From Adhaeribacter pallidiroseus (GTDB lineage: Bacteria > Bacteroidota > Bacteroidia > Cytophagales > Hymenobacteraceae): a stretch of 64,000 bases of DNA. Location: assembly GCF_003340495.1 (NCBI RefSeq), contig NZ_QASA01000003.1, forward strand, positions 1-64,000, given 5' to 3'. This document shows positions 2,389 to 47,222 of this stretch, piece by piece. The translations under genes and the position numbers were made by a program. How positions within the stretch are numbered: position 1 is the stretch's first letter; each line of letters begins with the position of its first letter. The notes under the pieces were generated by a model. It did not search any database, was not told the DNA's origin, and saw nothing but the letters and a program-made list of their open reading frames with translations.

Positions 2389-2432
2389 TCTTTCTTCGCA
2401 TTCTTGCTAATGCGGTTAAACTGGATTTGCTC

Positions 2433-2615
2433 CTAATTTAGCTGATGCATTCTTCGCAGCAGTTGGAGTCTAATTTTTTGAAAAGCGATTTCTTTATCCG
2501 GGGGTAAACCCTGGAGCATGATTTCATCTAAGTACCGAAGATAGGCTTCTACCTGGCTACGATTTAAATTATTATCCTCTAGATGGGAGAAGATGTAATC
2601 TAATAGTCCCGCCAT
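2433..2615 (-). CDS. Small protein of unknown function (60 aa)
   Basis: Identical to 37706-37888. The product is mostly charged and helical, with no signal peptide or membrane segment. It is convergent with the upstream kinase; the two stops are 44 bases apart. I do not recognise the family. Confidence 0.55.
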   Translation of the reverse strand: MAGLLDYIFSHLEDNNLNRSQVEAYLRYLDEIMLQGLPPDKEIAFQKIRLQLLRRMHQLN

Positions 2616-2745
2616 AACCTTAGTAAAGTAATAAAAGTGGTATACGCGAAAGAATAGCCAGCGTACCCGGATTAATTACGGAAAAAAGGTGCGTGAAATA
2701 AGGAAATAGCTCCTCCGCCTGGGTTAGGGCAAGACGGAGAAAAGA

Positions 2746-2852
2746 ATGGATATAGCCGAAGAGTTATGGTTGAAAAATTGCGGCTGATGCCTTTAGGTCG
2801 CTTTATTAGCCAGATTGATGATCAGAGCGTGGTGTTTTCTTTTCCTTACTAG
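2746..2852 (+). pseudogene. Truncated paralogue of the 94-aa protein (copy 1)
   Basis: Copy 1 version of 38019-38129, with a further 4-base loss near 2776. It matches the first 36 residues of the protein at 25435-25719. The rest of 2616-3005 shows no coding signal. Confidence 0.6.
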
Positions 2853-3005
2853 CGGAGTAGGAGGGAAGCGGCGCATTTCTCCGAAACCTAGCCAACAACA
2901 CCATTCTTTTGGTGGCTAATTCCTACTAATAAGCCTATCTCGGCCTTATTAAAGCGTTTTTATATAATAGCTTAGTTGACCCCCAATAATTTCATGGGAA
3001 GGTTC

Positions 3006-3408
3006 CTAGGCCTCAAAGTGCTCGGCTAGAATGCTTTTTAAAGCCGCCTCGGTTAAAGGCTTATTCAACAGTCCCGTAATATTAGCTTGTTCTACTTTTT
3101 CAATGTCTTGCGGATTTAAAGAAGTAGTCAACATAATGATGATGACTGATTGCCGCTGCGCCAGCTCTAATTGCTCATAAGCTTTCAAGAACTCAAAGCC
3201 ATCCATAATCGGCATATTTTATATCCAATAAAATTAATTGGGGGCAGTCCAAACCGGGACAGTTTGCCTGCAGGAGTTGTAGCGCCTCTAACCCGTTATG
3301 GGCTACCAGCAGCTTTTCGGCCACTTCTAATTTTTGAAAAAGCCGTTTATGCAGATAATTAGCCGTATCATCATCATCCACCAGCAAGGCACTAGCAATT
3401 CTAGTCAT
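3006..3408 (-). pseudogene. Receiver-only response regulator, frameshifted copy
   Basis: Copy 1 counterpart of 38283-38684. One extra T near 3220, in a T run, splits the frame immediately before the phospho-acceptor motif. It is probably a homopolymer error. Confidence 0.85.
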
Positions 3409-3439
3409 GGTATTCTTGTTTATTCTTTACCGGAAGGCT

Positions 3440-5824
3440 CTATTGAACTTGTTCCTTATTCCGCCGAAAATAGACCTGGAAGGTAGAGCCCTGGTCGACG
3501 GCACTCTGCACTTGGATTTTACCGCCGGCATTTTCAATTATTTTCTTGACCATGTATAAGCCAATCCCGGATCCTTCCACGTGGGTATGTAACCGCTGGA
3601 ACATGGAAAATAGTTTGTTATTGCCGGTTAAATCCATCCCTAGACCATTATCCGTGACGGAAAGTACCTGATATTCCGCCGTCTCCCGGCAATGTACCCG
3701 GATGAAGGGCACTCGTAACGGTGAGCGGTACTTCAGGGCGTTGGAAAGTAAATTATAAACAATACTGCGTAAATTCTTGGCCGAGAATTGAATCGTAGGG
3801 CAGTCGTCTACCGCTACTTCAATCTGCGCCTGAGAAGCTTCATGGGCTAAATCGAGCTGCACTTCGGTTAGGAGGGCGGGCAAATGAATGGGGATAGCTG
3901 CCGCGTTATTTTCCTTTTGCAGCTTCGTGACCTCGGTTAAATGGCCGATGGTGCGTTTAAAGCGCTGTACGGAATTCTGCATCAGATCCAGCGTAACCTG
4001 AACATCTTCGGCCAGTAGACTCTCGGCTGGTAATTGATATTGTAAAGCCTCCAGTAAGCCTTCGATGTTGAGAATGGGCGCTTTTAAATCGTGCGAGGCC
4101 GTGTAAATAAAATTATCTAAATCCACGTTGGTGCGCGTAAGCTGCTGTTGCAGTTCTATTTGCGCGTGAATCTCCACGTTAACGCCGCTATAACCGACTA
4201 GCTTTTGGTCGGGGGTGAAATAGGGTTTGTGTCCGGGTGATGGACCACCGGTATTCCCCATCCGGCGCCGAATCCGGTATACGGGGCTTTCCCAAGGTTG
4301 ACCCGCCCGGAGAGCCTGCGTAAAAGATTGATTTAACTCTGGTAAATCATCGGGGTGCACCATATCCCAAACTTGGTCTAATTGGTTCGGGTTAATCCGC
4401 AAGCCGCTCCACTCTAACAAAGAATCATTGACGTAAGTAATGTGCCCCGTGGCATCGGTCCGGAAAATAAATACGGGTGCGTTCGCAGCCACCAGCTTGA
4501 GATCGGCGGCCATTTGGGCGGCTTGCTGCCGTTCGTGTACTTGCTGGGTCACGTTGTAGGCGAAAGTAGAAATGCCCACAATCTGCCCGTTTTCCCGGTA
4601 AGCCTGGTAAGTAAAAGTAAAATAAATCTCTTCCCCTCTGCTACCATCCGGTTGGATAATGGTCAAAGGCCTTTCGTAACCAAAGTACGTTTCCCCGGTT
4701 TGGTACACCTGATCCAGCAAAGCGACAAACCCCCCGATCACGGTTTCGGGCAAAGCTTCCGCTACGGGCTGACCTTGCAGCTCCCGGTCCGGGAAAAGTA
4801 GCTGATAAGCGGCGTTAAAGTATTCAAACCGGTGTTCTGGTCCCCGTTGGATGCAGATGGCGGCCGGCGTTTGCTCAAAAACCTGGTAGTAGGTTTCACG
4901 TTCCTGAATTAACTTTTGAGCATTGGCCAGTAATTCGGCCTGTAAGGCGGCGGCTCGCTGCCGGGCGGCTACCTTCTCGGTAACGTCCACAAGAAGGCCA
5001 GAATACCTTGCATTTCGCCGGAGTCATTCCGCAAGGGCTGGTAGATAAATCAAAGTACCGTTGTTCCAGTTGCCCGTGTTTAGGGCATCAAGCCGCACGG
5101 GTGTTTCCGTGCCTCGAAAGGAATGCCGGTACCATACACTTGGTCCAAAAGTTCGAAAAATCCTTGCCCTTCTATTTCCGGTAAGGCCTCCCGCACGCGT
5201 TTACCGATTAGCGGTCGATCATCCCCACCAACTCCCTAAATCGAGGATTGGCAAGTTCAAAAACATGATCGGGTCCGGTCAAAACGGCAATAATAGCCGG
5301 CGCCTGCATAACAAGGAATAAAGCTTTTCTCTTTCAACTTGTATCTGATTTTTAGAAGAAACCGCTTGTTCTATTTGCTGAGCAGATTTTTAACGAACTT
5401 TTATATTCTGCCTCTCTTTGAACCTCTTTGGTGATATCTACTACCTTCTGGATAATATACTCCACTTCCTGAGTGGCATTTAAGACAGGGTATGAATGGG
5501 ATACCAGAATTTCTCTTCAAGCCGGTCCCCAAATGGGCCGGCGCGGAACATCATACCGCTGCACTCCATCTGGGTGGGTGTTTATGTTTTAATACGTACT
5601 CTAAGGATGATCTGACTTTGGAAACCCCATCCGCATCCCATGCTCCGGATTATCCGGAAAGGCCTCAAAAATATGTTTGCCGGTAAGCTGTTCCGCAAAG
5701 TAAAAGTGGCTTCTAAATAAGCGTTGCTGGCATTCAGGATTATCAGATCTGGGGAAAGAATTAAGTATAGATCGGGAACGGTCTCGAAAACCTGTAGTTT
5801 CGATTTGTCTAATTTTAATGACAT
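3440..5824 (-). pseudogene. Multi-PAS histidine kinase, frameshifted copy
   Basis: Copy 1 counterpart of 38716-41121, about 21 bases shorter overall. The 3' half reads as one long frame (3440-4990), but with an altered stretch near 4236-4262 caused by compensating indels and a 6-base loss near 3840. The 5' half is broken at many single-base losses. Use copy 2 for the protein. Confidence 0.85.
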
Positions 5825-6032
5825 TCTACTTAATCTATACCATGATTTTTTAGGAAAATGTAAGCTACAGCTAAAAACAACTTTTAATAGGAACCTATCA
5901 TTTAAGGGGCATATTTCCGAAATAACTGGAATAGGTTTTAATTCTTCCCAGATATACCTGTCAAGCTGCCAATGGACCACTTTTAAACCAGCAGGGACAA
6001 GACCAACGGTCAACTTTTTTCAGGACGAGTCA

Positions 6033-6170
6033 GTTGACCAAGCGTCTCGTAAAACGACGGAATACTGATATAAGAAAATACCTGGTAGCTCCAGGTATTT
6101 TTAGCTTTTTATTTTTCTCATAAGGGCATCTTAAAAATCAAGAGTATTTTTGATTGTTGAGATGAGTTCT
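6033..6170 (-). repeat. Structured ~140-bp inverted repeat, left arm (element A)
   Basis: Read on the minus strand, it runs from AGAACTCATCTCA to GGTCAAC and matches 20796-20936 along its whole length in opposite orientation. It contains three successive hairpins: CATCT...AGATG around an AT-rich stem, the 11-bp terminator-like stem at 6075-6101, and a CGTC...GACG stem. Homology to the right arm fades quickly beyond both ends. The pair brackets the stability/defence block. Confidence 0.75.
6075..6101. terminator. Bidirectional hairpin inside element A
   Basis: AAAATACCTGG pairs perfectly with CCAGGTATTTT around a 5-nt loop, giving an 11-bp stem with A and T tracts on its flanks. It could end transcription in either direction. 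The paralogous hairpin at 20866-20892 keeps the pairing through a T-A to G-C double change. The copy 2 equivalent is 41374-41400. Confidence 0.65.
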
Positions 6171-6229
6171 AGGAGCGAACAGAAACGATCATTGTTTCTG
6201 GGTTTGTTGCGGCAATGGCTATCCAGTCA

Positions 6230-6601
6230 TTATTCTTTGGCTTGAGCTAAAAAGCTTTGATATTCGGTGAAATCTTCCGGATCCATGTGCAGCCGAATAT
6301 ACTCCTCCAGGCCAATGTCATTTTTCTCATTCACATACCGGGTAAAAGATAAAATGCCTTGACAAGCTTCAAATCCTTTTTGTTGCATGTCCTGCTGCAT
6401 ATTAGGGGGTAATCCCTCCAGCCATTCTTCAAAATCTTGAACCGTGGGCGAAAAGGTTCTGGCTTTTTGGTGATAGCGGTACGCAATATTGCCGTTCGTA
6501 AATAACAACTCGTGAAAACGCCGCTGATCGGCCGGGCACTGAGTTAGAAACGCTTCTTGCCTCTGATTGCAATCTTCGTCCGGATGCTTTACTTTAATCA
6601 T
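6230..6601 (-). CDS. Unknown protein (123 aa)
   Basis: Identical in both copies (41530-41901), so the frame is reliable. It is an acidic, glutamine-rich, probably helical soluble protein with no signal peptide, membrane segment or recognised motif. It lies 52 bases downstream of the HEPN-like gene on the same strand and is probably co-transcribed with it. I do not recognise the family. Confidence 0.7.
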   Translation of the reverse strand: MIKVKHPDEDCNQRQEAFLTQCPADQRRFHELLFTNGNIAYRYHQKARTFSPTVQDFEEWLEGLPPNMQQDMQQKGFEACQGILSFTRYVNEKNDIGLEEYIRLHMDPEDFTEYQSFLAQAKE

Positions 6602-11175: not shown

Positions 11176-11838
11176 TTATTCTTTGATAAATCCGCTGCAC
11201 CTGCACAGCTTGAAATTCTCCGCCCGGCTGGCCCGAAAGCCAGCTTCGTTTAATTTACTGGCAATGGCTAACCAACTTAATTCCTGCGAACGGTAAAGCT
11301 TAATCATAGCCGCGGCTCGCTTGTTGTTCTGATTAGTGGCTGCTTTCTGTTTTAATGCCTGGGCACCGGCCACCCGGTCCTGATAAGTCAGGTTTTCTGG
11401 TTTGCCTAATTTGGCACCCTGAGCAATCTTCGCCTGCAGAGCGGCTTTAGTCCGGCTGCTGATCAGCTCCCGTTCGTGTTGGGCCAGCACCGCAAAGATT
11501 CCGATGGTTAAAGTATTGGCATCGGGCATATCAGCACACACAAAATCAACTCCGCTTTCTTTCAGAGTAAAAATAAAAGAAGCGTTCCGGCTGAGCCGGT
11601 CCAGCTTGGCAATAACTAATGTGCCTTTAATTTTACGAGCCTGCTCGATGGCTGCAATCAGCTGCGGCCGGTTGTTTTTCTTTCCACTTTCTACTTCGAC
11701 GTATTCACTGGTAATCTTCTGACCATTCAGAAAACTGGCCACGGCGTATTGCTGTGCTTCTAATCCCAAACCGCTGGTTCCCTGCTTGGCTGTTGATACC
11801 CGGTAATAAGCGACATACTTTTTCTCCACTTGTATCAT
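11176..11838 (-). CDS. Serine recombinase, copy with altered C-terminus
   Basis: Copy 1 version of 46471-47142. A missing C near 11223 changes the last 20 or so residues and moves the stop from 11168 to 11176. The catalytic domain is intact. The copy 2 C-terminus (VQVQRIYQR) completes the helix-turn-helix and is the more credible one. Confidence 0.85.
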   Translation of the reverse strand: MIQVEKKYVAYYRVSTAKQGTSGLGLEAQQYAVASFLNGQKITSEYVEVESGKKNNRPQLIAAIEQARKIKGTLVIAKLDRLSRNASFIFTLKESGVDFVCADMPDANTLTIGIFAVLAQHERELISSRTKAALQAKIAQGAKLGKPENLTYQDRVAGAQALKQKAATNQNNKRAAAMIKLYRSQELSWLAIASKLNEAGFRASRAENFKLCRCSGFIKE

Positions 11839-12156
11839 CTTTGACCTATCTTGTAATAAAAATAAGGGAAGATTACCAGTTTTACAAATCTTAAACGGTC
11901 GTTTGTGGTTTGTAAAACAAAGTTGCTTCTCTGCTGTGCTCTTCTTTAAGGAAAAAAACTACTCTTTTTTGCCCAGTTTTTATAATCCTCTTAATACCTA
12001 ATAAACCGCCTTTTTTAACGAGAAAAATAGAAGGGTTTTTTGTCCACCTATTTCTCATAATGCTTGGATGGTTCCTTCTAGCTTTTTGATAAACTAGGAG
12101 AGGCAGAGTTAAACTTTAAAAGAGGTAAAGCCTATTTTATTTAAAAAGAGGAACAC
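11839..12156. other. Gene-free region upstream of the recombinase
   Basis: Besides the dyad at 11879-11918, I see only AT-rich sequence with no coding signal. A res-type site of about 100-120 bp would fit here, but I cannot define further subsites with confidence. The copy 2 equivalent is 47143-47460. Confidence 0.5.
11879..11918. promoter_or_regulatory. Nested 40-bp dyad (site E), probable recombinase site or operator
   Basis: GTTTTACAAA and TTTGTAAAAC are perfect 10-bp arms around an inner AAACG-GT-CGTTT dyad, and both share the same centre between 11898 and 11899. It lies 41 bases upstream of the recombinase start, the usual place of a resolvase res site. The central GT is not self-complementary, which would give the site a direction. 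The copy 2 equivalent is 47183-47222. Confidence 0.6.
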
Positions 12157-12594
12157 TCAAGAAGCTGCAATCATTTGGGCTGGAGCAATAGGTAAGTCTT
12201 GGTTTTCTATCTGCTGCAAAAATTTAATTTGCTGTTTTATCTTTTCTAATACCTGGTGGATGTCTACTCCCGTAATCTGCTGCACTCCTTGCATGAGTGG
12301 CCCTAAGTCTACTTTCTGACGAATGAAGTCCCGCACACGGTAGAGTTCGAGCTGGCCTAAGTCCGTGCTTTCTGGATGCTTAATAAAGAGCTCTAAATCG
12401 AATTGATAGAGTACGTACCCCGGCTGCCGGCGAACAATGGGCAAGATAACACAAACAGTGTTATGGAGAATATCGGGTTCTTGGAACTGCTGCTGGAGAT
12501 AACTAGCCTCATTGATAATAGGCCAGATCTCGGCATCATCATAAAACTGCTCGATATAAGGCGTAATTTGTTCAGGCATGTAATAGTAAATCAT
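12157..12594 (-). CDS. Unknown protein (145 aa)
   Basis: Identical at 47461-47898, so the frame is sound. It is a soluble protein with an aromatic N-terminus (MIYYYMPEQI) and a helical, glutamine-rich C-terminal half (about 100-135). It is transcribed divergently from the AbiEi-like gene, and the first 22-bp palindrome lies 62 bases upstream of its start, so the same regulator may control it. I do not recognise the family. Confidence 0.65.
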   Translation of the reverse strand: MIYYYMPEQITPYIEQFYDDAEIWPIINEASYLQQQFQEPDILHNTVCVILPIVRRQPGYVLYQFDLELFIKHPESTDLGQLELYRVRDFIRQKVDLGPLMQGVQQITGVDIHQVLEKIKQQIKFLQQIENQDLPIAPAQMIAAS

Positions 12595-12655
12595 TGGCGT
12601 AAGTAAAGATAGCAGTTTATTTACTTAACTCTTTAAATTGGATCTTTGTCTATAA

Positions 12656-12677
12656 CGTAAAGTATATATACTTTACG
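12656..12677. promoter_or_regulatory. Palindromic operator 1 (22 bp)
   Basis: A perfect palindrome with the core AAAGTATATATACTTT, which is shared with the two palindromes below. It is the one nearest the divergent 145-aa gene. The copy 2 equivalent is 47960-47981. Confidence 0.75.
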
Positions 12678-12744
12678 CTCATAGGAATTAATTGTTACGT
12701 AATTCTTAATTCATCTTCCCCTTTAATATTATAGATAATTCTAC

Positions 12745-12805
12745 TTGCACTTATCATTTTAAACGATTAACTTTGCTATACAGAAAGTATATATACTTTC
12801 TGTAT
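12745..12805 (+). promoter_or_regulatory. Promoter with palindromic operator 2
   Basis: TTG at 12745-12747, a 20-base spacer and TAACTTTG at 12768-12775 match the Bacteroidota -33/-7 consensus. A perfect 28-bp palindrome with the AAAGTATATATACTTT core follows at 12778-12805, over the expected start site. The copy 2 palindrome is 48082-48109. Confidence 0.7.
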
Positions 12806-12857
12806 TCTAATACTTTTTTGTTTCTATTGTAATAGTAAACGATTTATTAATTACTTA

Positions 12858-12912
12858 TTGCTTTTATCCTATAAACCTACTAACTTTGTAGAAAGTATAT
12901 ATACTTTCTACA
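12858..12912 (+). promoter_or_regulatory. Promoter with palindromic operator 3
   Basis: TTG at 12858-12860, again a 20-base spacer and TAACTTTG at 12881-12888. A perfect 26-bp palindrome overlaps it at 12887-12912, with the same 16-bp core. It ends 22 bases before the AbiEi-like start. The repeated promoter-operator layout suggests tandem autoregulated promoters. The copy 2 palindrome is 48191-48216. Confidence 0.75.
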
Positions 12913-12934
12913 TGTAAACACCATAAATACAATT

Positions 12935-13800
12935 ATGGCTGGAAAGTCCCGATTTATTATTGCTGAAAGTAGTATTAAGTCCTTTTTCAAGCAGAGCCTT
13001 CAGAATGTTTTCTCGCGTGAGCAACTAAATGGAATATTTGAAGAAAGAAGAGCAGCTTGGAATTTGCCAATTGCTACTAATAGCGTTCGATTTATTGATC
13101 AGCTGCAAAAAGAGGAATTTTAACTAAAACCGAAATTTTATTTGACGGCTACTTAAATAATAAGGAACGTTATATTACTGATTCTGCTAATGTATTCGAG
13201 GTAGCTGTATCTTTGGTCAACAAATCTTATTTATCCCATTATACAGCTGTATTTCTGAATGATTTAACTAATCAGGTACCAAAAACTATTTATGTCACTT
13301 TCGAGCAAAGCAAGAAAGCAGCTGGTAACTCGCAACTAAAGCAAGAAGCAATAGATGCAGCTTTCTCGAAGCCGCAACGAAGAGCCTTAACTGAAGCGAA
13401 ATATGGAGATTTCTCTTTTCTCATTCTCAATGGTATGAATACCGGAAGAACTGGTATTCATACCATTGAGAATGTTCCAGTAACGAATCTGGAACGTACC
13501 TTAATTGATATAACTGTTCGGCCAAGCTACGCTGGAGGAGTTTACTCAGTGTTGGAAGCCTACCAAAATGCCTTGCCCCGAATCTCACTAAATAAGTTGG
13601 TTGCTACTTTAGACAACTTAAATTTTATTTATCCTTATCATCAAGCCGTTGGATTTTATTTAGAGAGAGCGGGATACTCCGGTAAAAAATTAGAGAACCT
13701 ACGAAGCCGAAAGAAAGAATTTAAATTTTATCTGACCTACGAAATACAGGAAAAAGATTTCTCAGAAGATTGGCAGCTATATTTTCCTAAGGGAATGTAA
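12935..13800 (+). pseudogene. AbiEi-like antitoxin, frameshifted copy
   Basis: Copy 1 counterpart of 48239-49105. One A is missing in the run near 13108, giving a stop after 62 codons. The rest is open from 13213. It is probably a homopolymer error. Confidence 0.85.
13422..13474. repeat. 22-bp perfect inverted repeat inside the AbiEi-like gene
   Basis: Two perfect 22-base arms, 13422-13443 and 13453-13474, are separated by only 9 bases. The arms begin CATTCTCAATGG and encode ILNGMN and IHTIEN. Such a long perfect stem inside a coding region is rare by chance. The copy 2 equivalent is 48727-48779 and is identical. Confidence 0.9.
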
Positions 13801-14692
13801 GTGGTTGGAAGGTGTTAACTACATAATCAAAGTAAAAATCAAAACTTTCGGATTTCTCAAATTTAGAAACGGTGTCTTTTACACTATCCCAATTGTCTTT
13901 ATGAAACTCTTTATTCGTACTGATTTCTTTAATAAAGCCTAAAGGAACCTGCTTAGCACCAAATATTTTCGCTATAAGTTCTTTATTTTTATTTGAGTTA
14001 GCATCAAGCTGATGCATTTCCATAATGAGGTGTATGTCATAAAAATCTCGGGCTCGAGGACGAGCAGAAAAAGATTTAATAACACCCTTATATTGTGGTA
14101 ACTGTTGGCAGATAGCTCTTAATTTTTCAAAAACAATCATTTCCGGGGTATACACATATACAGTAAACCCGTCAACATCTATTGCAGCCTTGCTCCCTAC
14201 GTACTCAAATTTACTAAATTCTAATTCAAAAGTAGGAGAGGGACCAGTTGAAGAACGTCCAGGCTTAAGCGGGATTGCCAGTCTTCTTTGATTACTTATA
14301 TTATCTTTATTGTCATTGAATATTTTTTGATCTAATACTTTAAAAGTAACTTGGTAGCCACTCCAAAACTCAATAGTTGGTGTTTTAGGCCTATTATTAA
14401 ATTTATAATCTATAAGAGCAAACCCGTGCTCTCCAAAAGTCTGTACCAAAGTTTTATGAATTCTCTCGCTAATAACAGCCACATCCTCTTCAAAATCGCC
14501 ATCTTCTATCGAGAAGTCTAAGTCATAGGAAGTTCTGGAAATGGAACTGCTATCGTGATAGGCAAGATCAATAGCATTGCCACCTTTTAAAACAATACTT
14601 TCTATTAGTTGATCATCCGAAGCTAAAGCAATAATTGCTAATCGCTTGATTTTATTAACTAAATCTAAATTCATTAAAAAGCTTAATTTCAA
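13787..14692 (-). CDS. AbiEii-like nucleotidyltransferase toxin (301 aa)
   Basis: LKGGNA at about residues 35-40 and TSYDLDFS (D57-x-D59) at 54-61 form the nucleotidyltransferase core of the AbiEii/AbiGii (DUF1814) family. The family partner AbiEi is the antitoxin in type IV toxin-antitoxin and abortive-infection pairs, and characterised family members modify tRNA. The remaining domain (about 110-290) contains ARPRARDFYDI, a typical downstream motif. It faces the AbiEi-like gene tail to tail, and the stops overlap by 14 bases. This differs from the usual co-directional abiE operon, so the toxin may have its own promoter. Identical at 49092-49997. Confidence 0.85.
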   Translation of the reverse strand: MKLSFLMNLDLVNKIKRLAIIALASDDQLIESIVLKGGNAIDLAYHDSSSISRTSYDLDFSIEDGDFEEDVAVISERIHKTLVQTFGEHGFALIDYKFNNRPKTPTIEFWSGYQVTFKVLDQKIFNDNKDNISNQRRLAIPLKPGRSSTGPSPTFELEFSKFEYVGSKAAIDVDGFTVYVYTPEMIVFEKLRAICQQLPQYKGVIKSFSARPRARDFYDIHLIMEMHQLDANSNKNKELIAKIFGAKQVPLGFIKEISTNKEFHKDNWDSVKDTVSKFEKSESFDFYFDYVVNTFQPLTFP

Positions 14693-14809
14693 ACTATTAG
14701 GCTACAAACCCTAGTAACCCTCCAAGTTGCAGTTGGCAAATAGGAATATAAGTATACTTAACGCTGCAAGAAGTAATTAGCTTATTTAGATCATAATAAA
14801 TAAAGTAAA

Positions 14810-15706
14810 CTAAAGAACAATGATTTTATTAGGAAGCCTTCGTCGAATTACGCCACCAACAAAATAGTAATTACTGGGAAAGTTTAAATTAGCGAAAAAT
14901 GAATACTCGATGTTCTCATAAACAATTTCATCTCGAAACTTAATATCTATCAATCCTCGTTTTTTTAAACGACGCTGAATATTAGTTCCAGTGCGCGCGG
15001 ATTTATACCCAAATAGCTTGGCCGTTTTTTCAGTTGATATAGTTACATCTAAGTTCAAATTATTGGGCAAAGCCGTTGAGTTTGGCTGATGAAGTTGAGC
15101 TTGTTTAATAGCTTCTAACTTTCGAATGGCACTTTTTTTTGCGCGACGAATTTTACTAGATGCTACTTTGTTTTTATAATCGGTTCCCAGTTTCTTGCTC
15201 AACTGGCTATGCACAAATTTGTTTTTAATGGTAATATCTTGCCTATTGCAATTTCGACGCATCTCCAAAAACTGGATAGCTGTTTCTAAATCTTTTGTGT
15301 TTTTACAAATGGGTAAGCGGAAGATGGGAATATGAATATTCTCTTTACGCTCATTCTCATCATAATTGTTTGATATTTCAAATCCTAAATAGCGATATAC
15401 TTGGCTTATATTAGCTAAAATTATAAATGCCTCTCCCAAACGGTTAATACCAACACTTAATAATTTTAATTTGTGTAAAGTTTTTACCTCATTATATATT
15501 TTGCTTTTTTTTAGTCCGGTATGTCGCTCTATTACTTTTATATAATTGTGGATGGTTCCAGATTTACTTATTTGTTTAACAAGAAGAAAGAAAAGGAAAG
15601 TAGTTTTGAATTTTCTTTTATTAGCAATTGCTAATGCACCTTCATAAACTTTAATACCTTGAATAGGAGTTAAGTCTTTCTTTCTATATGTAACAATTTG
15701 TTTCAA
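14810..15706 (-). CDS. Unknown protein with a probable winged helix (298 aa)
   Basis: A helical stretch at about residues 50-90 (HNYIKVIERHTGLKKSKIYNEV, followed by a hydrophobic wing) looks like a winged helix-turn-helix. A second candidate lies at about 220-255 (TISTEKTAKLFG then a basic helix). The protein is strongly basic and cytoplasmic, which fits DNA binding. AT-rich codon use resembles the neighbouring AbiE genes more than the GC-richer hydrolases. It could be a replication- or phage-type regulator, but I cannot assign a family. The copy 2 version is frameshifted. Confidence 0.6.
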   Translation of the reverse strand: MKQIVTYRKKDLTPIQGIKVYEGALAIANKRKFKTTFLFFLLVKQISKSGTIHNYIKVIERHTGLKKSKIYNEVKTLHKLKLLSVGINRLGEAFIILANISQVYRYLGFEISNNYDENERKENIHIPIFRLPICKNTKDLETAIQFLEMRRNCNRQDITIKNKFVHSQLSKKLGTDYKNKVASSKIRRAKKSAIRKLEAIKQAQLHQPNSTALPNNLNLDVTISTEKTAKLFGYKSARTGTNIQRRLKKRGLIDIKFRDEIVYENIEYSFFANLNFPSNYYFVGGVIRRRLPNKIIVL

Positions 15707-15960
15707 GCCTTACAATAATAATTAGTCCTTTATATTTCAATTAATAGCAAATCAACTATACTGTAAATATAACAATTAAATTTTTGATTAGCAGACGTTT
15801 CCATAAAATTGCATTTACTTTTAAAACCGTTTAGCTTAATGTAATAAAGATTATTGAGGTTGAAAGATACTGTAGTAGCCTTAGCTTACAAAACGGCGAG
15901 AAAGAGTCATCAATAGTTAAAGTAGATGGATACTATTTTTATATCCATCTACTTATAAAG

Positions 15961-16134
15961 TTACTTAGTTTTAGTCGGGTCAACCAATTTATAGAAAGAC
16001 CCAGCTTTAGGGGTAGGAGGCAATGGATTTCCTTTTGTCGAGGTTCTCTCAGGCCCTTTTCCTCCACGGGGACCAATGATTTGATACTGCCCACTTTTGG
16101 GCGCTGGAGTACCAGCAGTTAATTTTCTAGACAT
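15961..16134 (-). CDS. YjzC-like small protein (57 aa)
   Basis: The protein contains TPAPKSGQY, GPRGGKGPERT, LPPTPKAG and LVDPTK in that order, which matches the short YjzC-like family known from Bacillus and other bacteria. Its biochemical role is unknown. I chose the ATG at 16134 rather than 16200 because the family resemblance starts with MSRKLTAGTPAP and the upstream residues look like untranslated AT-rich sequence. It is divergent from the PqaA-like gene. The copy 2 equivalent is 51264-51437. Confidence 0.7.
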   Translation of the reverse strand: MSRKLTAGTPAPKSGQYQIIGPRGGKGPERTSTKGNPLPPTPKAGSFYKLVDPTKTK

Positions 16135-16321
16135 AGTAATAATATTTTGTTTACTATTAAAAATACAAAAATTTCGTTTAATAAACAAATTACAAGTCAT
16201 TATATTTCAGGTAATTAACGAAATATTTTACCAAAAAGTGATTGGATTTAAAAGCTATTGTTATATTAAAAGTAGACTCAATATTGATGTGTCTATGCTA
16301 AGCTCCTGCACAGTTACCATT

Positions 16322-17659
16322 ATGAAAGCCAATAGGTTAAAAGGTTTACTCCTCCTATTACTAGTTCTAGGCACCTTTTATGGTTATGGTCAAAAGCAGC
16401 CTTTACGCATTCCGCCTAGTAATGCCTTACTCCAATATGTTCACAAACCAGATACTTCTTTTCACTGGCAAAACAATCAACCAAGCCTAGCTAGTAACGG
16501 GGTGTTTTATGAAGTAAACTTCCAGTCGCAAACCTGGCAAAGCATTCCCTGGAACCATAAACTTATCGTTTACTTTCCTACCCAAGCCAAACACCCGGCT
16601 ACTATGCTCCTGGTGTTGCAGCATCTATATGACCAAGAAGCTGGTCTGGCTAGTTTGAAAGTGATCAGTGACTCCACCGGTACGCCGGCCGCGATGCTCT
16701 ACGATATTCCCAATCAACCTTTATTCGAAGGCAAGGAAGAAGATGATCTGCAGGCTTATACCTTTTCGCAGTACTTAAAAACGGGTGATGAAAGCTGGCC
16801 TTTACTATTTCCTATGGTGAAAAGTGTGGTGCGCGCCATGGATGTGGTACAACTATTAGCCAAGCAGCAAAAACAACTGGCCGTAACTGATTTTATCATC
16901 GCCGGTCACTCGAAGCGGGGACATACTACTTGGTTAACGGCGGCAGCTGATAAACGCGTAAAAGGAATTATTCCCATCGCCATTGATATCTTAAACTCAA
17001 AGGCGCAATTACCCCACCATTTAGAAGCCTTTGGTGCCTACAGCACACCTTCGCAAACCACAACGGATTTGCTTAAAGAACTCCAACAGCCCCGCGGACA
17101 ACGTTTGATTCAAATGGTGGACGCGTATTCTTACCGGGAGCAGCTCTTAATACCTAAGTTAATAGTTTCAGCCACCAACGATAACTTCTTCACCACGGAT
17201 GCTTTAAACTTATATTGGCCCGGTTTAAAAGGACCTAAAGCAGTGCTTTATCTCTCGAATGCGAACCATGTCCAGGCCGATGCAGATTCGCGAATCAACG
17301 CCACCGCTTTTGCCTTTATCCGCGCTGTGGCCGCACATAGAAGTTTACCGCCCTTGATTTGGCAGTACCGGCCAGACAATGATCGTATTCGGTTAGAGAT
17401 CCGAACCGATAAGCGAGCCACGAAAGCCCAATTATGGATTAGTAGGGCCAAAACAAAGGATTTTCGGCAAGCGGTGTGGAGCTCTCAACCTATCACGCAA
17501 ATAAGTAGAGCGAAGGGAGATCAAGGATCTATTTACACCGTCGAAGTACCCCGACCAGATAGTGGATATACGGCCATTTTCGGGGAAGTGGAATTTATAG
17601 AGGATGGACATTCGTTTTTACTTTCTACCCAAACTCACATCAGTTCATCTGGTAGATAA
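16322..17659 (+). CDS. PqaA-family secreted alpha/beta hydrolase (445 aa)
   Basis: The protein begins with a signal peptide (MKANRLKGLLLLLLVLG...YGYGQ) and belongs to the PhoPQ-activated pathogenicity-related (PqaA) family. GHSKRG carries the nucleophile serine and TNDNFF and NANH fit the acid and histidine regions. A C-terminal beta-rich domain of about 100 residues follows. The substrate is unknown. The ATG at 16322 is preferred because it opens the signal peptide; an upstream in-frame start at 16097 would add 75 residues overlapping the YjzC-like gene. GC content is higher than in the flanking genes. Identical at 51625-52962. Confidence 0.8.
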   Translation: MKANRLKGLLLLLLVLGTFYGYGQKQPLRIPPSNALLQYVHKPDTSFHWQNNQPSLASNGVFYEVNFQSQTWQSIPWNHKLIVYFPTQAKHPATMLLVLQHLYDQEAGLASLKVISDSTGTPAAMLYDIPNQPLFEGKEEDDLQAYTFSQYLKTGDESWPLLFPMVKSVVRAMDVVQLLAKQQKQLAVTDFIIAGHSKRGHTTWLTAAADKRVKGIIPIAIDILNSKAQLPHHLEAFGAYSTPSQTTTDLLKELQQPRGQRLIQMVDAYSYREQLLIPKLIVSATNDNFFTTDALNLYWPGLKGPKAVLYLSNANHVQADADSRINATAFAFIRAVAAHRSLPPLIWQYRPDNDRIRLEIRTDKRATKAQLWISRAKTKDFRQAVWSSQPITQISRAKGDQGSIYTVEVPRPDSGYTAIFGEVEFIEDGHSFLLSTQTHISSSGR

Positions 17660-17803
17660 ATGATTACATTATAATAGTAAAAAGTTGAAACTTACTTATT
17701 CTGTTGAACATAATAGTAGTTATTGAGACAAATATTGTAGTTAGCTTTTACCTTTAGTATTGATTCGGAAGATTATCCGGATAAGAAGTACTAAGAATTC
17801 GTT

Positions 17804-17842
17804 ATAAGACCGAATACCACTTTTTGCTGTACTCGGTCTTAT
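17804..17842. terminator. Bidirectional terminator
   Basis: ATAAGACCGA and TCGGTCTTAT form a 10-bp stem that extends to 14 bp with one mismatch. The loop holds TTTTT. It lies between two convergent genes that end at 17659 and 17857. The copy 2 equivalent is 53107-53145. Confidence 0.65.
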
Positions 17843-17856
17843 GATTAGCCTAAGGC

Positions 17857-18099
17857 TTAGGCATTTTCCTGCTCCCCTTCAGCTTCCTTTTTCCTACGGC
17901 CACGATAGCCCCCTCTTTTCTTTATCTTCAGCTGACCTGAGCGAGCTTGATTGACCAGACTCTCTAACTCGCCTAAGCCTTCCTTCTGACCAGCTACGTA
18001 ACGCTCCAGACTAGTGGTTAAGGCTTCTAAGAGTTCTTTGTTTTGTTGCGCTTCCTGCAAGGTTTGTACTATTTCACTGATGTTTGCTTCTTTGGCCAT
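17857..18099 (-). CDS. Small helical protein with basic tail (80 aa)
   Basis: Residues 5-55 are a charged helix of coiled-coil character. They are followed by a glycine- and arginine-rich basic patch (KIKKRGGYRGRRKK) and an acidic end. It may bind nucleic acid. Identical at 53160-53402. I do not recognise the family. Confidence 0.6.
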   Translation of the reverse strand: MAKEANISEIVQTLQEAQQNKELLEALTTSLERYVAGQKEGLGELESLVNQARSGQLKIKKRGGYRGRRKKEAEGEQENA

Positions 18100-18422
18100 T
18101 GATTTGAATTTTATTCTGCATCAAATATATCTAGAGGAGTCTAGAAAACAGCAACATTCTTCTTAAAACAAGACAGCAATTCTAGTGTACCAGGTAACAT
18201 TCGTATCGGTAATAGAATATAGAGAGGACGCTGGTATTTTACATAAATCAGGATGAATTCATTAGGCAGAAAACGACCGTTTTCTGAATGGAACAAACTT
18301 TAATTTCCCCTTTTAAGGTAAATCAATAATACTATAAACAGCTATAAAAGGCTATTTGTAACAGCATCACTATTTCTTTTACAGTTATACCAATTTTTCA
18401 ATCATATTTCAGAACTGAACGA
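18100..18422. other. Gene-free region holding palindrome D
   Basis: No coding signal is visible. It contains the GT/AC-centred dyad at 18267-18286 and AT-rich sequence before the 229-aa gene. The copy 2 equivalent is 53403-53724. Confidence 0.5.
18267..18286. repeat. Dyad D, related to the recombinase site
   Basis: CAGAAAACG and CGTTTTCTG are perfect 9-bp arms around a central AC. On the minus strand it shares the 14-mer AAAACGGTCGTTTT with site C (23172-23185), and the inner 12 bases with site E. Its central dinucleotide is inverted relative to E and C. The copy 2 equivalent is 53569-53588. Confidence 0.55.
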
Positions 18423-19112
18423 ATGCAAAAAATTACAATTAAGGAATTAATAGATTTCAGAAGAAGATCAGAAAGGAGCAAAAAAAACTTTGCTTTTAAA
18501 TTGAAAAACAGAGAAGCCAAAGTTAAAAGTGAAACCAATGGCGAAGAAGGTGGCGGTGATTATTGGGTTACCAGTACCAGTTGTATTTATAATGTTTTTA
18601 AATCTGATAATGCGGAACTGTACGATGCTAAAATAAACGAATTAAGAGCAAAACTAGAAGGATCCAAAGATATACGGATTAAGGCCATGTATCAACGGAA
18701 CATAGATATCCTTCTTAGTTTTAAAGAATTTGATTTTCAAGAATTCAAACCTTCCAGTGCCCCAAAATACAGGAAAGTACCCAAAGATCATCAAATAGTA
18801 ACTATCGAGAATTTCCCTTTGTTCGTTAATCCAAGTCTTTTGTTTACTTATGAGAAGGATGATAAACAGGAATTAGGCGCCTTATGGTTGATCCCCAGAC
18901 TTTATGGTTTTAGTAAACAAGAATTAGGCATGTTTTGCGAAATACTTTACAGATTACTAAAGAGAGATTACGCGGATAGTTACCAAATTTCTCAAGATAA
19001 TTGTATTGCCATAGATACTTTTAATGCGCAAACCATATGCTACACGGATCTTGCAGAAGGTAGAATCCCTTTTTTGGTCGATTCAACCTTAAATGAAATT
19101 AAAGACTTATAA
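18423..19112 (+). CDS. Conserved hypothetical protein (229 aa)
   Basis: The protein opens with a basic helix (MQKITIKELIDFRRRSERSK) and has a GGGDYW motif near residue 45. It ends in a mixed alpha/beta region with LGALWLIPRLYGF and LGMFCEILYRLL. It resembles a conserved hypothetical family I associate with Bacteroidota genomes, but no function is known to me. There is no signal peptide, so it should be cytoplasmic. Identical at 53725-54414, so the frame is sound. Confidence 0.7.
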   Translation: MQKITIKELIDFRRRSERSKKNFAFKLKNREAKVKSETNGEEGGGDYWVTSTSCIYNVFKSDNAELYDAKINELRAKLEGSKDIRIKAMYQRNIDILLSFKEFDFQEFKPSSAPKYRKVPKDHQIVTIENFPLFVNPSLLFTYEKDDKQELGALWLIPRLYGFSKQELGMFCEILYRLLKRDYADSYQISQDNCIAIDTFNAQTICYTDLAEGRIPFLVDSTLNEIKDL

Positions 19113-19194
19113 GCAATGACAGCTAACCACACCTAGATACTAACCAGTGACATCTTGTAGCTACCTAGAAAGTATAACTTGACTTATTTGTTTT

Positions 19195-20334
19195 TTAGGT
19201 AATAACGGGTACTTTCTTAATCGTTACTAAAGGCTGCTTAACTATTTTACTTTCGTAGCGGGGTGTAACTGTTGGCTGTTTATACTGTTTTAGCTCGTAT
19301 TTTCTCCGTAGAACAACAGTTACCACTTTAACCGTAACATTAATATCATTGTGGAAGTTATCATTATGCAACCCCAGGTAAAAGGTCCCCTGTGTGGGCG
19401 CTTCTTTCCGGCCATAGCCCGAGATACCATTACCGTGATCATAATAGCGAAAACCACCTTTATCAAAACTATTCATAAATATGGTAGCATTAGCCCGATC
19501 TGCCATAAAGTAATATTCCACGTTGCTACCCGCGTTTCCGGTGGGCAGAAAGGCTACTTGGTTCAAGGCCAATCCAATCAAAGGATGGCCCGTGACATTG
19601 GCTAAACTACCTAATGCTTGTACATAAGCCTTTTTGTTTGCTTCGAAGGCTAAGTGACCCTCTTGTCCTACCCCTAGCCAATAGGCCCAGGAGATAAGCT
19701 CGGTAGATTCTAAAGGAGCGGTCTTATTTTGCGGTAAATTAATTTGAATCACCGATTCGCTCGGCTTTCCGATGGTAGTTTCGGCGGCAACTTGTTCGAC
19801 TCTACTAAATAACTCTTGCGCGAGGGTATCTACTTTGACTAGTTCTTTTTTCGTGTAATAAGTAAAAGTAGTATCATAGCGCGTAAGTTCTTGCTTGGTA
19901 ACGGTAGTAAAAGTAGTATCAGTTACTTCTTTCCAAGTTACTTGGGTATTAAAGTTAATTGTGCTGGAGCTGGCGGGTTTACGATTAATTTTAACAGTAC
20001 AAGCTCTTTGCGCAAGAGCGTTATTGGTAAACCGGAATAGATAAATTCCTCGTTTATTGATTTTGAGGCTTTTAGTAAAGGTAGATACCTGTAAGCCCGC
20101 ATATTTTGTTTGATTGGGATATTCTATAATCTCTACTTGCTTAAGTCCTTTCTTGCTTAAGTCAACAAAATCAAAAACTAATTCATCTCCGGCTTCAAAA
20201 CCATAGTAGTATTCTTTAGAACCCATTCCTGGGACTTTAACAGATAAATCCGCTACTTCTACGAGGGCACTTTGGGCTAATGTGGTGTTTTCAAAAAAGA
20301 ATACCAGTAATAAAAGAGTAACCAGGTGTTTCAT
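19195..20334 (-). CDS. Secreted protein of unknown function (379 aa)
   Basis: The ATG at 20334 opens a clear signal peptide (MKHLVTLLLLVFFFENTTLAQ). The mature N-terminus looks beta-rich and may be a jelly-roll or PKD-like domain. It is followed by a threonine-rich linker (about 125-170) and a second beta domain with SWAYWLGVGQEG. The C-terminus is basic and rich in valine and threonine. It is probably periplasmic or surface exposed. I do not recognise the family. The copy 2 version has a 1-base loss. Confidence 0.65.
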   Translation of the reverse strand: MKHLVTLLLLVFFFENTTLAQSALVEVADLSVKVPGMGSKEYYYGFEAGDELVFDFVDLSKKGLKQVEIIEYPNQTKYAGLQVSTFTKSLKINKRGIYLFRFTNNALAQRACTVKINRKPASSSTINFNTQVTWKEVTDTTFTTVTKQELTRYDTTFTYYTKKELVKVDTLAQELFSRVEQVAAETTIGKPSESVIQINLPQNKTAPLESTELISWAYWLGVGQEGHLAFEANKKAYVQALGSLANVTGHPLIGLALNQVAFLPTGNAGSNVEYYFMADRANATIFMNSFDKGGFRYYDHGNGISGYGRKEAPTQGTFYLGLHNDNFHNDINVTVKVVTVVLRRKYELKQYKQPTVTPRYESKIVKQPLVTIKKVPVIT

Positions 20335-20552
20335 GAAGGAAGAAATTGAAGAAGAACTTAATTTTAAACATATAAAAAACACTATATTTTAAATTAAGTT
20401 CCACCTTTAAATATTTTTCCTTACCGGACTCGCTCATAGACTTTAAGTTCTATTCTGATTCGTGCTTCCGCGAATTAATGGCTAATCGCTACGAGAGCTT
20501 TTTCCTATACTATTTTGTCAGTAACGGTGCTGATAGTTAAACAATAAATAGT

Positions 20553-20753
20553 ATGAAAATAGAACACGTAAATTTAATGCGAGCTGGATTTAAAAACACG
20601 CACAATGGATCCTTGTGGTTGTATCAGAAAGGAGAGGTTGCCGTGGGGATCTTGCGGGAAGGAGAATTCGATGAAGAAATAATTATCCTTGTTAAGGGTA
20701 ACAAAAAAGAGGATGTTATATCCATGAACGAGTTAAATGCTTTATTCTTTTAA
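20553..20753 (+). CDS. Small protein of unknown function (66 aa)
   Basis: A short, well-formed frame identical in both copies (55853-56053). It begins MKIEHVNLMRAGFKNTHNG and appears to be a mixed alpha/beta protein without signal peptide. It ends 42 bases before element B. I do not recognise the family. Confidence 0.55.
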   Translation: MKIEHVNLMRAGFKNTHNGSLWLYQKGEVAVGILREGEFDEEIIILVKGNKKEDVISMNELNALFF

Positions 20754-20795
20754 CTAAATTCTTTCATAAATCATGTTATTACTTTTTCGTCTATC

Positions 20796-20936
20796 AGAAC
20801 TCATCTCAAAAATCAAGAACACTTGTTGATTTCTAAGATGGTTTAATGAGAAAGTTATAAAGCTAAAAAGACCTGGTATAACCAGGTCTTTTGCATTCTC
20901 ATTATATCGTCGTTTCACGAGACGATTTTGGTCAAC
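20796..20936 (+). repeat. Structured ~140-bp inverted repeat, right arm (element B)
   Basis: It runs from AGAACTCATCTCA to GGTCAAC and matches element A (6033-6170) in inverted orientation. The three-hairpin order is conserved, including the central CCTGG...CCAGG stem with a compensatory change. It lies in the 424-bp gene-free gap between the 66-aa gene and the alpha/beta hydrolase; the rest of the gap shows nothing I can name. The copy 2 equivalent is 56096-56235. Confidence 0.75.
20866..20892. terminator. Bidirectional hairpin inside element B
   Basis: AAAAGACCTGG pairs with CCAGGTCTTTT over 11 bp around TATAA. Compared with the element A hairpin, one T-A pair has become G-C, so the stem is kept while the sequence changes. 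The copy 2 equivalent is 56165-56191. Confidence 0.65.
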
Positions 20937-21177
20937 CTATATCTGGACAAGACAGACAAAGCATGGCTACTTACCATCAAGCTAGTTAATAAACTAACAT
21001 TGTAATTTTAAAGGAGAATAATGACTTAATAGGACCATCGTTTATCGACTGCAATAAAAAGACCCTTCCTAGTAATGGTCCTTCCCTGCGCTAATCAACG
21101 GCTACACCAACTTGACTGTCCCTAACTCCGTAAATAGTCCTAAGCTATTACGCCATAGCTCCTGATTCCAATATCTT

Positions 21178-22095
21178 ATGGATATGCACTGCATTCGCCG
21201 CGGCACCGGTAAGCCGCTATTACTTATTCACGGAATTGGCGGTAGCTCGCGTTCTTGGCATCTGATCCTGGATGCCCTAGTTGAAGCGGGTCGGCAAGTT
21301 ATTGCCGTTGACTTACCGGGCCACGGGGCTACCCCGGCCTTGCGAGGGGAAGTATCTATCCGTACGCTGGCGGATGCCGTTACAGATTTTCTGCAAAAAC
21401 AGGATTTAATGGGTATTGATGCGGTAGGTAGTTCCATGGGTGCCCGCTTGGTACTAGAGCTAGCTCGACGCGGGGGAATAGTAGGCGCCGTTGTTTCATT
21501 GGACCCCGGCGGATTTTGGCGGGGCTGGGAAGTACCTTTTTTTTATTATTCAGTGGCTACTTCCGTGCGCCTAGTGCGGTTATTGCAACCGATAATGCCA
21601 ACCCTCTTGGGAAACCCCATTGGCCGTACGGCCCTATTAGCTCAGTTTTCTGCTCGTCCCTGGCAATTACCGGCTACCTTAGTAGGCGACGAAATGCGCA
21701 CTTTTGCCAGCTCCCCTTCTTTTGATGAACTCTTAGACCAATTAGCTCACGGAGAGCGGCAACAAGGGGTTCCTCCGGGAACCATTAAGCAACCATTGGT
21801 CATTGGCTGGGGCCGGCAGGACCGGGTTTGTCTTCCCCGGCAAGCAACGCGGGCTTTAGCTGCTTTTCCCGACGCTCACCTGCATTGGTTTAATGATTGC
21901 GGCCACTTTCCCCAGTGGGATGCCCCTACCCAAACAGTGCGCCTAGTGCTAGCAGTAATTAATGGTGAATTGCTATTGGGTGGTTTACCGGCCCAAAGCA
22001 CTCAACGAACTTCTCCCCGTAAAGTATTCTTTAAGCTGGCAATTGGCCTGGTGTTAATCGCCAGCGTTATCGGGCTTTTCCGGCGAAAAACATAA
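21178..22095 (+). CDS. Alpha/beta hydrolase with C-terminal membrane anchor (305 aa)
   Basis: The alpha/beta-hydrolase pattern is complete: an HGIGGSS oxyanion turn at about 18-24, GSSMGA with nucleophile S86, an acidic residue in GRQDR near 220, and the catalytic histidine in GHFPQWD near 245. A hydrophobic helix at about 285-301 (LAIGLVLIASVIGLF followed by RRK) would anchor the C-terminus in the membrane, which is unusual for this fold. The substrate cannot be read from sequence; the family includes esterases, haloperoxidases and dienelactone hydrolases. Identical at 56477-57394. Confidence 0.85.
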   Translation: MDMHCIRRGTGKPLLLIHGIGGSSRSWHLILDALVEAGRQVIAVDLPGHGATPALRGEVSIRTLADAVTDFLQKQDLMGIDAVGSSMGARLVLELARRGGIVGAVVSLDPGGFWRGWEVPFFYYSVATSVRLVRLLQPIMPTLLGNPIGRTALLAQFSARPWQLPATLVGDEMRTFASSPSFDELLDQLAHGERQQGVPPGTIKQPLVIGWGRQDRVCLPRQATRALAAFPDAHLHWFNDCGHFPQWDAPTQTVRLVLAVINGELLLGGLPAQSTQRTSPRKVFFKLAIGLVLIASVIGLFRRKT

Positions 22096-22657
22096 GGATT
22101 TTTTTGTACAAGAACAAACGAGCAGTCCGTAGCTTTTCCGGCTTTAAATATCTTCCTTTAAGAATATACTTAGCCGAATACGAGGTAAGGACGCCGATTA
22201 TCTACTTTTATTTTATACCGATTATAACTGCTGAAAATAGAAGGAGATTACTATACTTCTTAATTTTACATAATCAAGTTTCGCGGACTGCTTTACAAAA
22301 AGGTATACCCACTATTATATTCAATAAAGGTCGTTTTCTGTCTTTCGTTATATGTAAGGGAAAGGAAAACAAAGTAAAGGTCTGGCACTAGCAGTAGTTA
22401 AAACACCCGGAATAGCCCGGAGCTCCCGCTGGCCGCTGGAATTAGAAAAGCATTCACTAAATTGGCCAAAGAAGGAGCAAGAGAGCCGCCACTACTCCAG
22501 TAAAAAATTGGTTCGCAGAATAGGCCTTCGGCAACTCTCCATCCATAATGCAAGTAACCGGAATTACTTTAGCTATCTGCTAGTATTCATATTGGTATTC
22601 TAATAAAACAAAATGCGGAAACTGCCTTTTCAATAAATAGTTTAAGCTGACCGACCA
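22096..22657. other. 562-bp gap without a convincing gene
   Basis: A 95-codon frame at 22104-22391 starts at TTG and has a composition unlike the neighbouring genes, so I do not count it. I see no strong repeat or hairpin. The copy 2 equivalent is 57395-57956. Confidence 0.5.
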
Positions 22658-23101
22658 GTGAAAAAAAGCCTGATAATCTTAGTCATCTTAGTAGTGTTGA
22701 ATTCTTGTAACAACCAAATCCAACTAACAATGGACACTAAAAACATGGATGTAGTAAAGCAGTACTTTGAACATTTTAACAACCACGATTGGGAGAAGAT
22801 GGCGGAAATGTATTCAGAAACAACTGCGTTTAAAGACCCTTCCCTTGGACAAGGAATTGTAAAACAGACGCGTGAACAGATTGCTCAAAAGTATAGTGAA
22901 TTAAATGAAGCTTTTCCTGATTTGAAAGATGATGTTATCCAGGTATACCCATCAGGCGAAAACCATATTATTGTGGAATTTGTATCGAGCGGAACCGCGC
23001 CAGATGATTCTAAATTGGAACTTCCAATATGCACAATTTTTACAATTGAAAATGGAAAAATCGTTAAAGACTTTACCTATTACGATAATTTTGAAGAATA
23101 A
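22658..23101 (+). CDS. SnoaL-like lipoprotein (147 aa)
   Basis: A GTG start opens a lipoprotein signal peptide (MKKSLIILVILVVLNSC). A single NTF2/SnoaL-like domain follows, with VVKQYFEHFNNHDWEKMAEMY and a C-terminal ENGKIVKDFTYYDN typical of polyketide-cyclase or ketosteroid-isomerase relatives. It would sit on the periplasmic face of a membrane. The start is chosen because it gives the signal peptide; an internal ATG at 22730 would give a cytoplasmic form. The two copies differ in one T near the 3' end, giving FEE-stop here and a longer tail in copy 2. Confidence 0.8.
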   Translation: MKKSLIILVILVVLNSCNNQIQLTMDTKNMDVVKQYFEHFNNHDWEKMAEMYSETTAFKDPSLGQGIVKQTREQIAQKYSELNEAFPDLKDDVIQVYPSGENHIIVEFVSSGTAPDDSKLELPICTIFTIENGKIVKDFTYYDNFEE

Positions 23102-23175
23102 AAAGCCGGCACATGATATCTAGGTAGGCCTATACGTAAGAATATGTAAAATGGCTTTATCCAATCTCAAGAAAA

Positions 23176-23228
23176 CGGTCGTTTTACGAGACGATTTGCT
23201 ATGAGACTTGTCCTAAGAAACGTTGACC
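23176..23228 (+). repeat. Site C, a partial copy of the element A/B end
   Basis: These 53 bases match the outer end of element A (minus strand of 6008-6060) at 41 positions by eye, including GTCGTTTTACGAGACG and GTTGACC at identical spacing. The left flank is unrelated to A and B and instead completes an AAAACG-GT-CGTTTT dyad (23172-23185). Homology to A therefore begins at about the central GT. The copy 2 equivalent is 58474-58526. Confidence 0.6.
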
Positions 23229-47182: not shown

Positions 47183-47222
47183 GTTTTACAAATCTTAAAC
47201 GGTCGTTTGTGGTTTGTAAAAC
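47183..47222. promoter_or_regulatory. Nested dyad E (copy 2)
   Basis: Identical to 11879-11918: 10-bp outer arms and AAACG-GT-CGTTT inner dyad sharing one centre, in the gene-free gap 47143-47460. Confidence 0.6.

Follow-up and report, generated by a model that had tools for sequence, protein, structure and literature searches.

A putative GT-centred crossover site of a res-like element family at the edge of a gene module on an Adhaeribacter pallidiroseus plasmid

We have analysed a stretch of 64,000 nucleotides from Adhaeribacter pallidiroseus (the window), and in particular three short dyads centred on GT (E, C and D), a family of res-like elements of about 160 bp, and a gene module that lies between one such element and dyad C. 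The window comprises the first 64,000 bases of the 66,047-bp contig NZ_QASA01000003.1 (C3), in a genome of 6.43 Mb assembled as three contigs. Positions 1-28729 and 35267-64000 are 99.7% identical, with 2 mismatches and 74 gap openings between them, and on this sequence evidence C3 is best read as a circle of about 35.3 kb (unit 35,266 bp) that was assembled past its own start, some 1.9 times round. The second plasmid contig, C2 (103,146 bp), is best read likewise as an over-assembled circle of about 74.4 kb, its positions 1-28772 recurring at 74414-103146 (about 28.8 kb). Genuine duplication of the dyads at +35.3 kb is thus ruled out; the contig wraps, so that the second set of dyads is not independent. 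Counts for this genome, whose chromosome is 6.26 Mb, use one copy of the overlap unless stated. The overlapping ends of C3 and C2 differ mostly by insertions and deletions, and several open reading frames are frame-shifted between copies (on C3, 13213-13800 compared with 48239-49105, and a recombinase of 220 or 223 amino acids (aa)). The features to which we refer are as follows.

6010-6168, minus strand: second res-like element, asymmetric, core GT at 6058 (139.0 bits, with a scoring model whose alignment includes this element)
11176-11838, minus strand: serine recombinase of 220 aa (Pfam Resolvase PF00239, E 2.7e-28)
11879-11918, plus strand: dyad E, 19-bp arms 84% complementary about a 2-bp centre, of the site type of the 220-aa recombinase family
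18267-18286, minus strand: dyad D, possibly a decayed site I
20798-20959, plus strand: res-like element, asymmetric (type B), core GT at 20909-20910, left edge of the module (155.9 bits, E 1.1e-23, again with a model whose alignment includes it)
20909-23177, plus strand: module, 2,269 bp from GT to GT, with direct cores at 20909 and 23178
21178-22095: alpha/beta hydrolase gene of the module
22104-22391: open reading frame of 95 aa in the module
22658-23101: gene for a SnoaL-like protein in the module
23160-23197 (inner part 23172-23185), plus strand: dyad C, TCTCAAGAAAACG-GT-CGTTTTACGAGA, a site I standing alone, at the right edge of the module
41309-41468, minus strand: second assembly copy of the 6010 element, from the element-model search
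47183-47222, plus strand: second assembly copy of E (wrap-around, not an independent site)
53569-53588, minus strand: second assembly copy of D (wrap-around)
56098-56258, plus strand: second assembly copy of the 20798 element, from the element-model search
58470-58483, plus strand: second assembly copy of C (wrap-around)

An ungapped alignment of 2,276 bp, at 99.65% identity, links the segment 20909-23184 of C3 to C2 44277-42002. The identity starts on the left at GTCGTTT; on the right it runs through the core AAACGGTCGTTT and stops at 23184, just after GTCGTTT. The same module of 2,269 bp from GT to GT is therefore present on the second plasmid (C2 44277-42008), with its cores in direct orientation and with different flanks. 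The partner of C is the core at 20909, which has the same GTCGTTT right half and was absent from an earlier reading of this DNA (the original prediction). That reading had proposed GT-centred sites for a serine recombinase, with cargo breakpoints at the same dinucleotide in other plasmids. It was right as to the kind of site, and the homology between C2 and C3 does end at the core of C; the wiring was different, since the pair supported is 20909 and C, and E is not involved. The 20909/C breakpoint probably belongs to a recombinase other than the 220-aa protein. Part of the hydrolase is also found, 91% identical, on the A. swui plasmid NZ_CP055154, between direct elements at 57109-57268 and 58683-58841. 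A search with nhmmer matches the element model to C over model positions 81-131 (E 7.6e-5), and by sequence C would be a site I of the res-like family, falling with its symmetric type. Another stand-alone symmetric site occurs in a relative (G004:C2 near 3080134). The DNA to the right of C resembles the right flanks of the elements at C3 6058, C2 54259 and A. radiodurans 122660 (each reached in 0 of 300 shuffles), and is unlike that to the right of either C2 42008 or C3 20909. These flank comparisons fit placement of the module in C3 between an element and its usual neighbour.

The three dyads have in common the inner 12-mer AAACGGTCGTTT around the GT, that of D lying on the opposite strand, and E is directly upstream of the serine recombinase gene, 40 bp from its start, all as originally described. 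Exact matches to AAACGGTCGTTT number nine in the whole genome, six of them on C3, compared with two for the reversed control pattern; when the duplicated part is removed there are three on C3, one on C2 and two in the chromosome. The class AAACG-GT-CGTTT is present in three copies on the 35,266-bp unit. Any dyad class of the form 5+2+5 reached at least three copies in 2 of 300 order-1 simulations, and any with at least two G/C in the arm in 0 of 300. The recurrence of AAACGGTCGTTT on the plasmid unit exceeds chance. Across the seven other genomes of the genus the 12-mer by itself does not outnumber its reversed control (18 and 33 matches respectively), so that the enrichment pertains to this plasmid and to the longer site.

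The likeness does not extend beyond the inner 12 bp. In each of four comparisons of the outer arms, E and C agree at 2 of 13 positions, which is no better than chance; for E and D the figures are 3, 4, 5 and 6 of 13. These outer arms, together with the variable centre of the E-type dyads (see below), rule out E, C and D as a single site family. D sits 120 bp beyond a shared 80-aa gene, at a place occupied by a full element in C2 and A. radiodurans. Its position fits a decayed element, yet the alignment shows little residual similarity.

Another dyad class, AGTAT with an AT centre, is also present in three copies on the unit, and appears to be part of palindromes near 12656-12912. The palindromes (12656-12677, 12778-12805 and 12887-12912) are built around AAAGTATATATACTTT. 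They lie upstream of a toxin-antitoxin pair of AbiE type (AbiEii 13787-14692), and are perhaps the operator of that pair.

The element that forms the left edge of the module belongs to a dispersed family. The 110 bp or so upstream of 20909 recur at C3 6058(-) and at C2 5337(-), 16773(+), 44277(-) and 54259(+), and also at chromosome cores near 1260668, 2503266 and 4468647; these elements are 67-78% alike over most of their length. Common to them are a CATCTCA...TGAGATG dyad, another TGAGAT and, at the far end, the core, and most copies also contain a terminator-like hairpin; further TCTCA/TGAGA motifs were seen by eye and are candidate accessory sub-sites. The accessory dyad is nearly symmetric, and also matches the model in reverse (C2 44342-44441, window 20751-20844 and others). 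The element model (A1, R1) was built from nine copies of this genome. It has matches in all eight genomes of the genus sample (the present one included), up to 24 per genome at E <=0.1, where at most 150 candidates were scored per genome and some matches overlap in reverse. With stricter filters the element is found in 20 of 120 genomes of the family, including the eight of the genus. The named relatives in the plasmid collection are A. swui and A. radiodurans, whose plasmids match contigs of G007 and G004 in the positions of their matches.

The cores fall into two types. Of 60 that could be read, 17 are symmetric (type A, TCTCGTAAAACG-GT-CGTTTT..GAGA) and 43 asymmetric (type B, TCTCnTTATTCC-GT-CGTTTC..GAGAC). 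The centre is GT in 16 of the symmetric and 33 of the asymmetric cores, i.e. in 49 of 60 overall. By sequence comparison, therefore, we regard the site family and the conservation of its GT as established.

The symmetric type is linked to a particular class of serine recombinase. Using as query the 189-aa protein of the A. swui plasmid NZ_CP055155 (PF00239, E 5.3e-50; PF02796 (HTH_7), E 9.8e-9), 14 loci at least 79% identical were found in the genus, three of them broken or split, and in all 14 an R1 element lies 13 bp upstream of the start codon. Of 15 R1 matches in the other genera of the family, nine lie 12-14 bp upstream of a gene of the 189-aa type. The centre is GT in all 13 readable cores beside a 189-aa gene. 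Homology among these loci spans the gene plus the element and mostly ends on both sides; the exceptions are a shared insertion sequence (IS), and a 350-bp stretch found in the rad and sw1 plasmids at different distances. The symmetric and asymmetric types have a common accessory part, a TCTC motif at the same place and the same right half, so that both may be used by one enzyme class; we infer this from the shared sequence.

Another class of resolvase type, with 51-52% identity to the 189-aa protein, is found at C2 around 5682-6239, G007:C3 2351353 and G003:C2 83549. We considered its C2 member as a candidate for the enzyme acting here. An element lies about 237 bp upstream of the gene in C2 and G007 and none does in G003:C2, and the class has a dyad of its own, GTGTAAAAAAACGAGGGTTTTTCTACAC, about 100 bp upstream of the gene at all three loci.

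The elements also lie near the ends of homology between plasmids. Taking elements, C and D together on five plasmids, 13 of 19 cores are within 160 bp of an end of inter-plasmid homology, where 5,000 random shifts gave a mean of 2.58 (p printed as 0.0000). With the elements alone the figure is 10 of 16, against 2.07 in the shifts. Ten of the 127 pairs of element loci with a flank in common have both in common. We dropped 106 pairs in which both loci bear the recombinase gene, or which share the right flank only and are both flanked by an IS; nine of these share both flanks. Of the 21 pairs that remain, 20 share one flank only, and the other (L162/L163 within G003) shares both. The right flank of the 6010 element, for example, is 87.7% identical over 895 bp to that of a chromosomal element locus of another species (G003:C1), while the left flanks are unmatched. 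As judged from these alignments, solo elements tend to lie at mosaic junctions. A second candidate transfer, between A. swui plasmids (sw1 62618-67058), was discarded, the gene order being the same in both plasmids.

Junctions of this kind could be made without a site-specific recombinase, if the elements were dispersed repeats resembling miniature inverted-repeat transposable elements and the exchanges arose by ordinary homologous recombination. The size of the elements, the 67-78% likeness of the copies in this genome and their number in others agree with this, and one-flank junctions are the expected product of repeat-mediated exchange. Yet C resembles its partner only around a core dyad of about 26 bp, and the homology of C2 and C3 ends at just that core; nor would dispersed repeats be expected from the constant spacing of 13 bp to one and the same kind of recombinase gene at all 14 loci or from the GT kept in 49 of 60 cores. 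We consider homologous recombination between such repeats to be rather unlikely, while giving it appreciable weight.

An IS-end-like sequence, gACtcGTCCTaAaAAAcGTTGACC (window around 23205-23227), lies about 30 bp to the right of several cores, i.e. C, 6058 and C2 54259. Two relatives (G003 and G004) have, in addition, an IS of about 1.67 kb. In locus L139 it occupies approximately 1767-3438, with ends GTTGTGCAACAGCC, and is flanked by the near-identical 8-mers ACGGTCGT and ACGGTTGT. In all, 34 ends were found and 30 examined, of which 27 abut the core motif on a loose pattern; this looks like an IS that hunts the core sites of the elements. The elements might then be plain sites for the resolution of cointegrates or multimers, their module edges being made by a res-hunting transposon or IS, and transposition of this type is described for SGI1 (PMC12217951). 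The exact end of the 1.67-kb IS is, however, absent from G000 and G007, and we think it improbable that the edges arose in this way.

Taking the evidence together, we put the probability at roughly 0.6 that C is a GT-centred crossover site of a res-like system, the scattered gene-less copies of which delimit modules in the genus. A recombinase of the 189-aa class would bind the TCTCA half-sites and pair two copies of site I, make a double-strand cut staggered by 2 bp at the GT, swap the halves and rejoin them. From a direct pair of cores the module would be excised as a circle with a full symmetric site at its junction; less often, such a pair would admit a module. The transfer between C2 and C3 could have occurred by fusion of the plasmids at one pair of sites and resolution at another. 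If this is correct, the boundaries of movable cargo in this lineage are set by resolvase-type sites and not by transposons or integrons, and the sites provide ready-made coordinates for predicting and testing the exchange of genes between plasmid and chromosome. It also raises the question of how a module enters by means of an enzyme class thought only to remove DNA.

A number of observations weigh against this interpretation. The link to the recombinase belongs to the symmetric type: 13 of 17 symmetric cores lie beside a 189-aa gene, and none of the 43 asymmetric cores, which is the type of the window's own elements. The present genome lacks the 189-aa class, the best match being 51% identical (C2 5685-6236) and of the class that has its own dyad; speculatively, another plasmid, since lost, may once have supplied the enzyme. 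An R1 match at the threshold used is lacking for 11 of 20 genes with at least 72% identity outside the genus, and the 72% copy in G005 also has none. C is without the accessory part of the element. The likeness to its right is to IS-end-like sequence, which could have arrived separately. Three of the eight mismatches between the module copies fall, by eye, within 16 bp after the left GT. Three loci that share both recombinase gene and element add to the homology-end signal, and a single near-identical transfer has been seen, the other one-flank pairs being about 65-93% alike. Finally, small serine recombinases are described as excision-only (PMC5698047), and entry of the module is thus the weak point of the interpretation. 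A wider proposal is that the modules are integron-like cassettes throughout the genus, each carrying a res element split at the GT and entering and leaving cores on plasmids and chromosomes. An integrative reaction would then be needed from that enzyme class, and we regard the proposal as doubtful.

We turn finally to E. The 220-aa recombinase shares 78.3% identity with its C2 homologue and 38-39% with the 189-aa class. Of 12 loci of its family, nine have a dyad whose middle reads CG-NN-CG no more than 250 bp upstream; among these nine, L162 and L163 are near-duplicates in one plasmid, and protein identity goes down to 43%. Six of the nine have TTTTACA-type arms. Locus L125 has a tenth similar dyad by eye, and none of E type was seen upstream of sw2 RS01110. 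Read in the direction of the gene, the centres of the nine are AC, CT (three), GA (two), CA and TG (two), and AC, CT and GA already occur among five loci with at least 78% protein identity. Given this variation, and the agreement of the outer arms at only 2 of 13 positions, the GT of E is not a feature of its family, and by these comparisons E does not pair with C. On the sequence of these loci, E is best assigned to the adjacent 220-aa recombinase and lies outside the module system; it perhaps serves resolution of plasmid multimers.

The original prediction took all three dyads to be sites of this recombinase, with E and C as direct repeats able to delete 11.3 kb and E and D able to invert 6.4 kb. 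The common inner 12 bp with its GT and the location of E directly upstream of the gene speak for such an arrangement, as does a result that tells at the same time against the res-like interpretation: inter-plasmid homology ends near all three E-type dyads (control 0.45, p 0.003). E may therefore be an exchange point of its own. Against it are the five kinds of centre in nine loci and the disagreement of the outer arms, and C bears the TCTCA arms of the other site family. Moreover, the C2 homologue of E, about 500 bp upstream of its gene, has the centre AG on the plus strand, yet the edges of the C2 module are GT. Nothing was found, no reads having been available, in support of the deletion or of the inversion, and we judge action of the 220-aa recombinase on all three dyads to be very improbable.

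Within the open-licence literature we found no paper on an Adhaeribacter plasmid resolvase or on solo or orphan res sites, and none on gene cassettes of serine recombinases with res sites as plasmid modules. The nearest precedents are the resolvase system CinH-RS2 and the shuffling of DNA by resolvases, and by effect the pdif modules. 'The shuffling function of resolvases' was reportedly described by Kholodii in 2001 for the Acinetobacter plasmids pKLH2, pKLH204 and pKLH205. Shuffling of that type would place module edges at site-I cores in different replicons, as we see in one near-identical case (C2/C3), and would have the cognate resolvase in the same cell, where here the best match is 51%. 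In integrons a gene cassette combines a gene and a recombination site as a unit that is inserted at one core, by a tyrosine recombinase acting on a folded single strand of attC. The Adhaeribacter modules differ in that the site is of serine type and no ordered array has been shown.

CinH-RS2 consists of a small serine resolvase of 189 aa and a 119-bp res; it is said to recognise further res sites as well, and res-dependent exchange between plasmids is named in a figure legend (PMC9501444, PMC5698047). It resembles the present system in being a small serine resolvase of 189 aa with a res. Unlike CinH-RS2, most Adhaeribacter elements are gene-less, occur on chromosomes as well as plasmids in a genus of Bacteroidota, and mark the edges of modules. 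The pdif modules of Acinetobacter (PMC9501444) are similar in having genes between short recombination sites common to plasmids; they employ the tyrosine recombinases XerC/XerD, whereas the sites here are linked to a serine recombinase and form direct module edges, although dif was not compared directly. Lastly, TIME-RES resembles the 189-aa gene with its element in being a resolvase plus res as a small portable unit; TIME-RES has Tn3-type inverted repeats and a 5-bp target duplication (PMC4133298).

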